Below, piece after piece: positions 3,101 to 17,446 of a stretch of DNA of 64,000 bases. The notes under the pieces were generated by a model. The model worked only from the letters and a program-made list of their open reading frames with translations. It was not told the DNA's origin and did no database searches. Source of the stretch: Protonemura montana. Lineage: Eukaryota > Arthropoda > Insecta > Plecoptera > Nemouridae. The DNA lies in NCBI GenBank assembly GCA_947568835.1, contig OX387608.1:8160001-8224000 (forward strand). Direction: 5' to 3'. Position numbers and translations under genes: made by a program. Position 1 is the stretch's first letter, and every line of letters begins with the position of its first letter.

Positions 3101-4110
3101 CGAGGAAGAAGAAAAACACTGTAATGGCAATTTTCCAGACGGTTTATTATTAGATTTTCATCTTGTGTATCTTGAAGGCACTTAGCTTTAGTTTTCCAAT
3201 GCCTTTAACGCTTGGATGGCATCGTGAAATCTGTATGCAGTACCTGGCATGTGTACGTACCTGTGTATTTGAACGAGTGCAATTTAGTTTACGTTATTTG
3301 CTGGGAAATTGGTGGAAGTAATGGTTGTTAAACGGTAATAGCGGCTTGGCATTGCATCTGCGAGTGCCCGTGTGTGTGTGTTGGTGTTCTTTTTTTGCGA
3401 ATTGGAGTGCGCACTTAAGGGATGTAAAGTGATTGCGTCGTCAAGGGTACATAAGAGACGGTAGACTTGATTGGATAGGTAAAAGAGTAAATACAATTGA
3501 AGGGTTTGCATGTCGTGGAGAATTTGCAAAGAGTTGTTTTTAAGATGTTTGGTGTTTTTATTTTGTTGTTTTCTAGTTTGCGCTGTTGCAGCTTTCATTG
3601 CGTATGGCTTTGAAGGGAAATGGAAAACTTGTTATGGATTCGAGACTAAATTTAAATTTATTCCTGGAATTCTTAAATTATTGGCATGGCTTTCTGGATG
3701 CAATTTTTGTGAGGTTATTATCTTTGCTGAATGCCAGACTTTTGTGACTGTTATCTGCCATTTTTTTTTTGGTGAAAACGGGGGACGCTTTTCTTTTGGT
3801 AACTACCCTTTAAAAACTTATTTGATGATTTGGAAAAATCACTGCTGAGTGACGGTCGTTGGGTGCATTTATGAATTCTGATGTAGTTTTTCTCTGCAGT
3901 TTGTTAATATAAGATAGAATTGCTTTCATTAACTTTTTATTTTGTCATGCATTTGATATCACAGTGGATTTACTTTTAAAATCGTTGACATTTAGAAAAT
4001 GATTTGAAAAATACCAGTAGGTAGTTGAGAACCAGTAGAAAAATACTAGCACATGTGAAGGTCCAGTGTTCAAATTTGTTTAACTCTTACATAAAGTGAG
4101 AGTTAAGTCA

Positions 4111-12578: not shown

Positions 12579-14384
12579 TCAATATTTCTTCAAATAATGT
12601 TGTGTTTCTTGTACCGTATAAAAAGCTAAAAAATTTGAAACACAAAATGTCATTTTTTTTTCACCGCTGGCAGCACTTTACTGATTTCTCCTCTCAAAAA
12701 CACAAGTGTCGGTGCCTCTACGACAAGGTCTCAAAGAAATGAAGTCCGCTGCAAAAGAAAAATAAAGATAACCCAGTGTAATTTAATCGGGACTGAAAGT
12801 AAAAAAAAAGAAAAAGCCCTTTGAAAAGTTGAAAGTGATTTTAACAAAATTTTAACTTTCCCCGTTTCGCCCTCTCGCCCCGGCGGCTATTATTAACCAA
12901 CACATTTCAAGCGAAGTGGACTAAAAAAAAAAAAACAAAAAAAAACTCACCGTTAACCCATTTTCTAACACCGCCCCCTCTATCTCAAGTTCTTCATTTT
13001 CTTCATCTTTTAACGCAATGAAGCGCTGCGTGAAACTTACAAATCCCCACGCGCCGAACAACACACGGTCTCTACCCACGACCATCTTTGTACAAAATGT
13101 TTCTAAATCCCCGGCCGGCTTTAGCCTCGCTCCCATGCGTTGCCAAGGTAGTTCGTTTCGCGAAGGCCGTGAACGCTATTCGCACGCATCGCCGATATTG
13201 GTGTGCACGACGCCGTGAAGCGAACTTCGAGAAGCAATTGAGAAAATGATCCATATTGGCGTGAGACGCGAGTCTTCTAGTGTTAATGCAGACGCTCTGT
13301 GCTGTCTAGAAAGCTGTGTTGTGTTCGGGAATGGCGAGAGATATTACAGGCTAATACAGCAAAATAACGATCTGTTTCTGTTTGTTAAGGCTGATTTTAG
13401 AGCTGAAAAAGCTGCTTGTGTAATTTTTAAATAAACAGGATAAAAACCCTCTGGCCAAAGGTCTTTGAAGTCTTTATTTGCTTCTTTTAATTGGTAAAAT
13501 TATCGTTTTATAGGTTAAGTTAAAGTCCCTTAACGCTTTGCTGAGCAAAAGAGCTGCCACCCGAAAGCACCTACGGCCGTCCTATTGAACATTTTAAGAA
13601 TAACGAATCAAAATCTTGAAAAATGTATATCAATAATTGATATTAGCATTAATGATGATTATTTTAACGTAAATCGGTATCCGTTAGAAAAAACAACATG
13701 ACAGTCCGTGTAAGTACTCTTGATTCCATCAAATAGCAACTACCATTTTCGTCGGTAAAGTTGTTGATCGATCTGTATTTTTTAAAAGAAATTTAACATC
13801 TTGAATAATTCATATGAATCATACAGAATAAAGAAGTCGTTACCAAGAGCTACCGCCTATAAAAAGTTAGCATGTGGCTAGCACATTTTTTTTCTTCACT
13901 TGTGCCATTTTTTGACCCGTACCTGAAATGCGAAGACAACTTTGGTCACGTGTCTCATATCGCCACCTGTCATGGCGGCCAAAACTCGGCACACTCTCTC
14001 GCCTGACCGTGGCTCTCTATTCACACCCAACTCCTACCACGCGAAGGTAACGCGGCACCGTGTAGAAGCCGACAAAGACACTTCTATATGCTGTACCTGT
14101 CGTGCGACGATCTTCGAGACGAACCTTTCGGCGAATCTTCGTAAGCCTCTCGTGTTGATATTTACGCTGGATCCGAGAATCAATCTCACGATGAATGGTG
14201 TGTACGCGAATTGTAAAACAAAAATGGCGAATATATATTTTAATAGTATTAATTGTATTCATACCTATATCATATATGTACTAGACGTATTCTCATACAT
14301 ATATATTAAATTGTACTGTAATGAATAAAAGGTACGTCTGCACATTTCTCTTATCCATAGCATAGAAATTAAAATACTTAAATT
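12579..14384. other. Non-coding stretch with a moderately CpG-rich segment
   Basis: The segment 12970-13220 is richer in CpG and opens short frames on both strands, none recognised. A 128-codon frame at 13942-14328 contains ATGGCGGCC (13972) and AAG/GTAACG (14045), a possible weak first exon, but nothing confirms it. Confidence 0.5.
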
Positions 14385-14402
14385 ATAAAAAAAATATATA
14401 TA

Positions 14403-14575
14403 TGTGGCTGAGTGGATGTTTTCAGAGCCATGGTTTGATTTTATGATGTGTTTTCTGGTTTTACTCTCTTGGGACGAGTTTTGTGGCCCTAGAGACCCTT
14501 TCTAGGGCCACAAACCTCGTACCAACAGAGCAAAACCGGAAAACACATCATAAAAAAAAAAATATATATATAAAC
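14403..14575 (+). mobile_element. SINE-like foldback element: A-box-like leader plus 55-bp hairpin
   Basis: The leader starts with TGGCTGAGTGG (14405-14415), an exact match to the tRNA Ser/Leu-type A box. Arms of 55 nt (14439-14493 and 14501-14555) then pair at 51 positions around a 7-nt loop. The right end is an A-rich tail. AT-rich direct repeats (ATAAAAAAAATATATATAT-like) flank both sides and may be target-site duplications or coincident microsatellite. No B box is clear. An alternative reading is a small-RNA hairpin precursor. Confidence 0.5.
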
Positions 14576-14624
14576 ACAACATTCCGAATTTGAACTGAAA
14601 GCGATCCAAATAAATGTCTGACGT

Positions 14625-14793
14625 TGGTTTTTAGACTCATGTCTACTTGATTTATCCTAAGCACAAGTTTTTAGAAAAGCTATTTGGACTGCTCAAACCT
14701 CTGAAGAAGTAACTAGTATATGTTACGAAACGTCGGGAAATTTAGTTGTCCTTTACTTAGCATTCAAAACCCAGTTCAAATAGTTTTTCTAAA
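14625..14793 (+). mobile_element. Small insertion with 13-bp target-site duplication and hammerhead-ribozyme-like core (Penelope-type)
   Basis: The 169-bp insert lies between perfect 13-bp direct repeats AAATGTCTGACGT (14612-14624 and 14794-14806). Inside, CTGAAGA (14701-14707; hammerhead core CUGANGA) is followed by a 5-bp helix GTAAC/GTTAC (14709-14713, 14722-14726) and then GAAACGTC (14727-14734). That order (CUGANGA, helix II, GAAA, self-complementary ACGU, UC) matches the minimal hammerhead variants known from Penelope-like retroelements, which have almost no helix III and work as dimers. A 21-bp stem with two G-U pairs (14670-14690 with 14773-14793) encloses the core. Only about 3 bp of helix I next to the core can be drawn, so activity is uncertain. 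Confidence 0.65.
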
Positions 14794-14806
14794 AAATGTC
14801 TGACGT

Positions 14807-16822
14807 GTTAAAATATCGGCATCTGTCGGGCACTGCCCCCATGAAACCTAACTTTTAAATCGTCATCTCTTCATTTCGCTATCTCGTTGCTAAGCAACAT
14901 GATGGAGTGCTGTTCAACAATTAAACCAAGTTCCGTTTGCTGCTTGTTTCGCCGGTCATTGCTAAAGTCACCGTCGCCATTATGCACTTGCATTCAAAGT
15001 GCAATAGGTGCATAGGTGCACTTCAGTGCATCCACGCACATGCACTCCCCGACGACTTGCGTTTGCTTGCATTGCTTGCGAGAAGGTTTACAACGTTGCA
15101 TTTGGAATTTCTGTGTTCATTTGTGGGGGAGGTTGCAGCGGGTGAAACATAAAGTGGATCGTGGCCGTTATTTTGTGTTTGCATTGTGTTTTTTCTGAAA
15201 TTTTTGAAATTCACAGCATAATTCGAGGTTGTTTTTTTCAACTGAAAGCGTAACCAATAGGTAGGTAATGGTTACATTAACAAAAAATGGTCGGCCAAAC
15301 AAACGGCTTTTTTGGTGGCTTTAACAAGTGAATTTTTGTTCTTATTGTTATTAAAACAAATGAAGAGTAATCTTTTGTGGTTCGACTTGTGTCAGTTGAT
15401 TGAAGAAACACTTGTTGCTCGTTTCAGTTCGATGCTAATTTTGGCGTCAATGACGTGGATCCTCTCATTTGAAAAAATTTAGCAAACGTTGGGAATTGTT
15501 AAGTCGCGAGGACTTTAGTGCTTGGTCACAAATTAAGCGGGTTGTCTTAAATTTTTATTTAAATTATTAGAAATTTAAACATAAGTAATAATTAATGAAA
15601 TCGAACTGTCGAGTTTGGAAATATTCACTGGTTAAACTAGTTGAAAGACGAACATCATGCCAGCATTTAAAAGTAAAATAACAAAACGAAAAATAAAAAT
15701 CCCTGACAACAATTCCGCACAAAAGCAGCTGTAATAAGTAAAAGAAATGAATATACTGAAAAACCAAACGCGTTCCAGATTTCGGTCGCTGCCTTCGTAC
15801 TAATTCCCGTCGTCAATCTCGGTAGCAAAGCCCGCAGGCTCTTACCAGTCGAACAAGCTTGCCTAATTACCACCACCGCACACATGATGCCACATACTCG
15901 TCGTCAGAACACACACATAGATGAAAATCTTGCTAAGCACCGCACCGTGGATTCTTTTTGTTCGCATTATTATTTTTAAATCGCGCAAATGACGTCGCCA
16001 TTGTTTGTCGCTAGTCGTTTATCAGCTAACATGTTCCACGAATCGTAACCATGACAACGGTGGGGCCGTTGTTTCGCGATTACTTGCTTGGGCTCATTGA
16101 GGTTTTGCTTATTAGTACTGCCACCAGGCGCGCTGGCAGACATATTAAAATGTGTATGTAGATATAGAACGTGGGAAGCGGTGGAATGGGGGTTTTTCAT
16201 TCTTTTGCATTTTTTTTTGGTTTTGGGTTAGAAATTACAGAACAGTTTTATAAATTGTACGTTTTCATGTTGACGTTGCGTGGAAAACTATTATTGATAT
16301 TAAATTAAACTATGTTTTGTTTAAACTTAATCAAATATAGCGAAAGCTACTTCAAAAATAACAGTTTTTGTCTTTCCAAATAATTGCGTGGGAAAAGAAA
16401 TGAGCAGACATTATGATTTTTTTTTTTTTTTAACATATTCTCTGTTGTGATTATAATGATTTTGAGCAGTATTTTAAATATTGAGTATTCCCGATTTATT
16501 GTCTGGTTTTACCAAAATGTTCAACATTAAGTTGGTTCTTTAACTCACAGAAACATCTGAATTTCACTGCATGTGATTGGAATTCACAACGGCAATAGTT
16601 TCAACTAAAACTTCAAGTTGGAGGCAAGATTTTCGTTAAACCTTACCTTAGTAAAACTGTACAAGTACACTAAAAAGTGATACACTTTCAACGAATCTTT
16701 AATTTTGCAAAACGGGAAAAAGTCGCCTTCGTTCACATGCATATAGCTCGCTATTTATATAGCCGGCCATCACAACTAGTTCACTTAAATGCAAAAATAC
16801 ACTTCTTGCACTACATTTACAC
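14807..16822. other. AT-rich non-coding stretch
   Basis: Contains the RFX-like palindrome at 14886 and a run of TGCA-rich words (14980-15050, AGTGCA and TGCAC repeated). Nothing else supported. Confidence 0.5.
14886..14898. promoter_or_regulatory. RFX-like palindrome
   Basis: GTTGCTAAGCAAC is a perfect inverted repeat with one central base, close to the classic RFX half-sites. It lies outside the nearby repeats. Confidence 0.3.
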
Positions 16823-17335: not shown

Positions 17336-17383
17336 TCACGCGGTATTTTGTTCACGTGGTATTTTTTATCGGAAAATTGTCAC

Positions 17384-17446
17384 GACTGCTTTCACCATTA
17401 ATAAAGTAACAGGTACAAGTTACGGAACGTTGGGAAATTCAGTGTC
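17384..17446 (+). mobile_element. Decayed relative of the hammerhead-type element
   Basis: ACTGCT, then AAGTAAC/GTTAC with an 8-nt loop, then GGAACGTTGGGAAATT align base for base to 14688-14741 of the intact insert. The CUGANGA core has become TTAATAA and GAAA has become GGAA, so the helix survives but the ribozyme core does not. It abuts the 16-bp minisatellite on the left. Confidence 0.55.

Follow-up and report, generated by a model that had tools for sequence, protein, structure and literature searches.

A 169-bp insert with a hammerhead-like motif in Protonemura montana as a highly probable two-ended, 5'-truncated insertion of an abundant Penelope-like element

Minimal type I hammerhead ribozymes of Penelope-like elements (PLEs) were reportedly first described by Cervera and De la Pena. 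Their core letters are CUGANGA and GAAA on the two sides of helix II, and an ACGU sequence would allow dimers to form. Passages of PMC6155905 and PMC7229834 described these ribozymes as lacking helix III and tertiary contacts. With respect to the insertion of PLEs, it was stated in parts of PMC11167929 that two adjacent start sites of reverse transcription (RT) bound the tail, that both target strands are cut and extended, and that the hammerhead is protein-assisted, its mutation being without effect on insertion in vitro. The same parts reported that no Anolis RNA-seq reads started or ended at the cut. For rotifer elements, portions of PMC3846280 described pLTRs in inverted orientation, of which one carries a tail, together with target site duplications (TSDs) of 8, 9 and 10 bp, and proposed self-priming. 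The two-ended layout with a tailed and a tailless end is already described for PLEs. Another group of hammerhead-bearing inserts, the metazoan retrozymes, was presented in part of PMC7229834 as small and AT-rich, any TSDs exceeding 4 bp. Excerpts of PMC6155905, PMC7229834 and PMC8969392 provided the background. The question on which the insertions described here bear is the role of the hammerhead in PLE replication.

The window was a stretch of 64,000 nucleotides from P. montana (assembly GCA_947568835.1, contig OX387608.1, positions 8,160,001 to 8,224,000 of the forward strand). A sequence-only reading had pointed to an insert inside a perfect 13-bp duplication, and both were present: the insert occupied 14625-14793 (169 bp), between duplication copies at 14612-14624 and 14794-14806. 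In an alignment of the window copy with 12 similar copies, the insert edges were the places where homology ended, within a few bases, and the inner block and its junction varied among the 13 copies. The order CTGAAGA, 5-bp helix and GAAACGTC that had been read from the letters was found at its place, as was the long stem around this core, with arms of 24 nt that were 92% complementary. The RNA fold had an energy of -38.6 kcal/mol (z -2.56). In the features given below, positions preceded by r are those of the parent element, and the core letter numbers as well as the predicted cut follow hammerhead numbering.

14612..14624, no strand: target site duplication, left copy, 13 bp, exact repeat AAATGTCTGACGT
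14625..14691, minus: left arm, inverted cDNA, parent r588 down to r522 (blastn of the parent against the window, 92.5% over 67 nt)
14625..14667, minus: inverted PLE tail of 43 nt; in the parent, the coding frame starts within it (ATGAGTCTAAAAACC)
14668..14691, plus: long stem, 5' strand; the right arm copied this template segment too
14686..14795, plus: right arm, cDNA in direct orientation, parent r436-r545 (97.3% over 110 nt)
14701..14707, plus: hammerhead core box 1, CTGAAGA (C3 U4 G5 A6 N7 G8 A9)
14709..14726, plus: helix II, GTAAC/GTTAC with an 8-nt loop, from the fold; paired 14709-14713/14722-14726
14727..14734, plus: core box 2, GAAACGTC, with a palindromic ACGT where a closed helix III would stand
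between 14734 and 14735, plus: predicted scissile bond, placed by hammerhead numbering
14772..14795, plus: long stem, 3' strand, from the complementary-arm search and the parent alignment
14794..14806, no strand: target site duplication, right copy, exact repeat AAATGTCTGACGT

In the alignments, the two arms came from overlapping template and lay in opposite orientation. One began at start site B, that of the tail, the other at the tailless start site A about 45 nt upstream, and both were 5'-truncated. The left arm was the one with the tail (a type B end); its end at r588 lay a few bases before r591-598, the usual range. The right arm corresponded to a segment of the pLTR that stopped at the tailless site (a type A end), and it began within a cluster of truncation points at r433-438. 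Positions 14686-14691 were common to both arm alignments and positions 14794-14795 to the right arm and the duplication. The window copy consisted of two short arms and contained no open reading frame (ORF). We considered it highly probable (roughly 0.93) that the insert represented one two-ended, 5'-truncated retrotransposition event of a PLE abundant in this genome and not a separate tiny element. In the proposed mechanism, the PLE enzyme would cut the two target strands at points staggered by about 12-13 nt, and reverse transcription would be primed on each strand, on one at start site B of the PLE RNA and on the other at A. The two short cDNAs would then be joined in the middle of the insert, and gap filling would yield the duplication. 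The hammerhead motif belonged to the parent pLTR and would in this case have been carried along as a passenger sequence.

The inverted repeat with its long stem was present because both arms copied r522-545. This stem, which the earlier reading could not match to any described element, is the inverted-pLTR and tail layout that portions of PMC3846280 gave for PLEs. The window insert is an ordinary PLE insertion product, and its odd stem is clearly explained. The notion of a recent, whole insertion was right in that the duplication marked a single whole insertion event, but the copy itself was 5'-truncated. Two other features were observed in the window. A second, more diverged PLE pLTR fragment was located at 17362-17443 (r415-496, 78% identity) and had a decayed hammerhead region. 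Just upstream of the insert, at 14434-14560, there was a long hairpin with 60-nt arms that were 88% complementary and separated by 7 nt; several microRNA models scored on it, far below their gathering scores, and it could be a foldback element or a hairpin RNA.

The suspected Penelope origin was borne out, since the right arm was a PLE pLTR and the genome contained a pLTR-ORF-pLTR copy with a reverse transcriptase. A genome-wide check for copies and full-length parents had been suggested, and it yielded many copies and a coding parent of 2.9 kb. The 195-base query gave at least 60 matches in the whole genome, taken from the 40 that were scored among 2220 first-look candidates. With one base left free, a 35-base core pattern occurred 417 times, far beyond chance (0 for the reversed control), and a 28-base word downstream of the motif had 1342 exact matches in the genome, both arms of one insertion being counted separately (control 0). 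From 32 core occurrences in 30 loci, the natural order was an upstream pLTR, the hammerhead region, and then either the tailless type A end, after about GTTTTTCTAAA, or the tailed type B end, some 45 nt beyond A at about CCATCAT. Longer copies extending beyond the tail were retrieved by genome search.

The parent (locus L090) was a pLTR-ORF unit in the same genome, with pLTRs in direct repeat (349-701 and 3289-3640, 98.6% identical) and an open frame of 856 aa that started in the tail, about 90 nt downstream of the hammerhead motif. A coding frame starting in loop II had been considered and was dropped because the parent frame began in the tail. In parent coordinates, the hammerhead core spanned r451-484 and was followed by the predicted cut (after r484); type A ends lay close to r545 and type B ends close to r592. 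The 3' ends were discrete, with 115 of 122 falling within r540-554 or r586-605. The parent protein matched RVT_1 at 50.5 bits (cut-off 29.6), and YVDD as well as GVYE...KVYIGETG (the GIY-YIG motif) were visible by eye. The Pfam search did not report PF01541 (GIY-YIG) for this protein, and the assignment of the endonuclease therefore relied on the visible motif and on homologues, of which P0033 carried PF01541 and P0032 was GIY-YIG by name. A PF01541 search of the genome gave one match, located elsewhere. Nearly all of the 120 homologues among the matches listed carried PF00078, and one from Anolis carolinensis was 37% identical to the parent protein. Two loci (L044 and L056) had copies that continued past the tail into the beginning of the coding frame before switching to another pLTR, apparently internal deletions. 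Downstream of another PLE copy, a tandem array with a 90-base period and repeats about 97-99% alike was observed (L091:4265-6107).

The insertions were further characterized in a sample of 70 loci on contig C1, of which the core pattern supplied 30 (L029-L058) and the downstream word the other 40 (L095-L134). The sample covered every listed C1 place of the downstream word up to position 29,430,717; L043 was the same place as L042, and L056 was left unclassed. Using tail and body probes and classing by eye, we found 46 two-ended insertions in 45 of the 70 loci, and all 46 had one tailed and one tailless end. This tail/no-tail rule sharpens what is known of PLEs. Another 23 loci were first classed as one-ended (18 tailed, 5 tailless). 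A short tailless arm was then found in two of them (L110 and L121), and L113 had an odd end at r509 that was neither A nor B. Apparently one-ended loci included L096 and L100 (tailless) and L054, L102 and L128 (tailed). A TSD candidate of at least 12 nt was present in only 6 of the 23 loci first classed as one-ended. A TSD of at least 8 nt flanked 36 of the 42 two-ended insertions checked, 12-13 nt long in 20 of them, compared to 1.6% of shuffled flank pairs; this check omitted L052 (two insertions), L058 and L103 and included L118, which ran off its stretch. Lengths of 12-13 nt were thus the commonest among these sister insertions.

For the hammerhead motif, a covariance-model check, which had been proposed earlier, gave no match to the Rfam hammerhead models in 14590-14830 at E up to 10 or in 14000-15500 at E up to 5. 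One extra A (14708) separated CTGAAGA from helix II, and this A between A9 and helix II was invariant in 70 of 70 arms. These were 70 distinct arms from loci that had not been picked by the core pattern, with 20 of the loci picked by likeness to the window insert. The C3 position was C in 39 of the arms and T in 25, G8 was G in 60, and H17 was C in 56 and T in 13, while A9, A14 and U16.1 were invariant. Both C3 and G8 were kept in only 36 arms. Each pair of helix II held in 64-67 arms, and the changes were to G-U or absent, with no two-sided change in the 70 arms. The sequence-only reading had named a lack of other copies, or a freely varying core around a helix without covariation, as evidence against its proposal; copies were many and the core was mostly conserved, but C3 was often replaced by T and helix II lacked two-sided changes. 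The mean variability of the core in the 70 arms was 8.8%, mostly from C3, compared to 5.4% downstream, so that per-position variation did not show a protected core. There was also a subfamily with CCCTTGAAGAAG at parent r450-451 where others had CCTCTGAAGAAG; in this subfamily C3 was changed to U while helix I gained a C-G pair. The pile-up of cDNA ends described below would bear on self-cleavage by the motif in an indirect way.

Truncation points were collected from 89 arms in which the downstream word was exact (87 when L042/L043 is counted once), a set that included three arms of one insertion (L115). The ungapped ends of L044, L056 and L106 were indel artefacts, and none of them lay within r485-490. 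Only the core pattern had led to L041, L046, L049 and the seven loci beyond 29.4 Mb (L052-L058), a choice that makes ends at r485-490 less likely to be found. The best 6-nt window was r485-490, which held the 5' ends of 22 of the 89 arms (3 at r485, 6 at r487, 7 at r488, 4 at r489 and 2 at r490) and abutted the predicted cut exactly. The second separate window was r433-438 with 15 of the 89 arms, located at GTCAGGA, which may resemble an arthropod initiator; a transcription start inside the pLTR is possible at this place. At the level of loci, 17 of the 30 with an end in r440-495 had one in r485-490 (binomial p about 1e-9). Of the 43 pairs of arms from one insertion, 8 had both ends in the hammerhead class (r476-492), versus 3.6 expected (permutation p 0.003), and 5 had both ends in r428-440, versus 2.6 expected (p 0.058); these paired ends were taken from gapped alignments, where single values can err by some bases. 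The pile-up of ends at the hammerhead is real in this sample.

Exact-word counts in the whole genome decreased from 1342 for words starting at r496 to 1211 at r491, 820 at r485, 633 at r484 and 531 at r477. This corresponded to a loss of 10% over the 5 bases r495-491, 32% over the 6 bases r490-485, 23% over the single base r484, and 16% over the 7 bases r483-477, and the drop over r490-484 was steeper than on either side. A T at r484 accounted for 124 genome occurrences of the 187 lost there, and C484/G485 formed a CpG, suggesting that point changes contributed to the drop. The one-base decrease at r484 (from 820 to 633) was therefore not taken as run-off alone, since the C-to-T variant explained two thirds of it.

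The very short non-autonomous derivative imagined in the sequence-only reading would be a self-propagating 169-bp unit, similar to a MITE or SINE, with its own fixed termini and mobilised in trans by the PLE. In favour of such a unit were the shared layout of 29 of the 60 matches among those listed, besides the window itself (covering query 19-177 or more, with identities of 83-95%), and the 12 aligned copies, which had nearly identical start and stop termini and, in several cases, flanking duplications recognizable by eye. However, the inner junction changed from copy to copy among the 13 aligned sequences, the arms of other copies ranged from about 9 nt to more than 300 nt, and there were also one-ended copies, as well as arms that extended a long way up the pLTR. 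The varied junctions and arm lengths therefore indicated truncation of a long parent and not amplification of one unit, and we regarded a self-propagating unit as very improbable. Self-priming of a hairpin as the source of the two arms was not favoured either, since symmetric arm ends (at most 5 nt apart) outside the two preferred sites were observed once in 43 pairs. The two-ended insertion of a long PLE is compatible with either of the following views of the hammerhead, which concern its role alone.

It may be that the hammerhead is active in vivo and that the self-cleaved RNA serves as the insertion template, in which case the cDNA would run off after r484 and the ends would pile up just inside; we gave this a chance somewhat short of even. 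The position of the best end window next to the predicted cut, its recurrence at 17 of 30 loci, the excess of insertions with both arms in the hammerhead class, and the steep fall of word counts from 1211 to 820 over r490-485 were all consistent with such cleavage. On the other hand, 19 of the 22 ends were 2-5 nt inside the cut and 3 exactly at it, the C-to-T variant (124) took up its share of the r484 drop, C3 and G8 were jointly intact in about half of the arms (36/70), the Rfam models did not recognize the motif, and the Anolis RNA-seq reads neither began nor ended at the cut according to parts of PMC11167929. Additionally, the drop was not weaker in the C3U-linked subfamily, counted at r491 and r485 with the marker CCCATTTC: the marked words fell from 209 to 132 (63% left, a drop of 37%) and the rest from 1002 to 688 (69% left, a drop of 31%). 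The marker was imperfect, as the T-marked arms with a readable core had U3 in 11 cases and C3 in 3. As a natural mutant control, this subfamily showed no difference in the expected direction, which speaks against the need for an intact core, or else carries no information, should the cleaved RNA come from marked C3 copies or the marked copies be of greater age. The common drop would be understandable if RT stalled on the folded motif at the base of helix I without RNA cleavage (an alternative transcription start belongs to the same possibility), and the centre of the pile-up at r487-489 indeed adjoined the GGG strand of helix I, which pairs as CCC/GGG in the C3U-linked subfamily. However, helix I has only three pairs, a stop at the longer helix II would fall at r477, and independent stalling does not predict one end class in both arms of an insertion; we considered stalling or an alternative start rather doubtful. 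Returning to cleavage, we tentatively propose, as something less probable than its opposite, that the genome records the ends of PLE templates. There would be one RT start site per strand, a quarter of the arms would end at the cut through self-cleaved RNA integrated in vivo, with both strands using the same processed class, and r433-438 (GTCAGGA) would be the transcription start.

New here is the observation that 22 of 89 arm ends fell within 6 nt adjoining the predicted cut; a title- and abstract-level literature search with partial journal coverage found no earlier report of PLE insertion ends at a hammerhead cut. With more than a thousand short arms of this family in one genome, the 5' ends of templates and the use of start sites can be read from DNA, and the family also holds natural core variants as controls.

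In comparison to the endonuclease-containing PLEs of the Penelope/Poseidon type (Poseidon of Anolis carolinensis and Pen2a of Adineta vaga), as presented in parts of the published descriptions, the P. montana family was alike in having an RT ORF between direct pLTRs, a hammerhead motif in the pLTR near the frame start, the presence or absence of a tail, inverted pLTRs, 5' truncation and short TSDs. The window copy differed in being two short arms without the ORF. The TSDs were mostly 12-13 nt here, whereas those given for rotifer PLEs in portions of their description were 8, 9 and 10 bp. In addition to the 37% protein identity, a difference from Anolis was that the ORF there is said, in part of the source, to start at helix II, whereas here it started about 90 nt past the motif, in the tail. 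The motif resembled the minimal type I hammerheads of PLEs in its CUGANGA, helix II, GAAA and the absence of a closed helix III. A possible difference was the additional A after A9, ahead of helix II. In the 70 sampled loci, which had mostly head-to-head or single arms, no tandem arrays with hammerhead monomers of 150-450 bp were seen, and L115 held a short partial tandem. Metazoan retrozymes, as far as part of their description goes, were alike in being small AT-rich hammerhead inserts with a TSD, whereas the coding parent here was a PLE.
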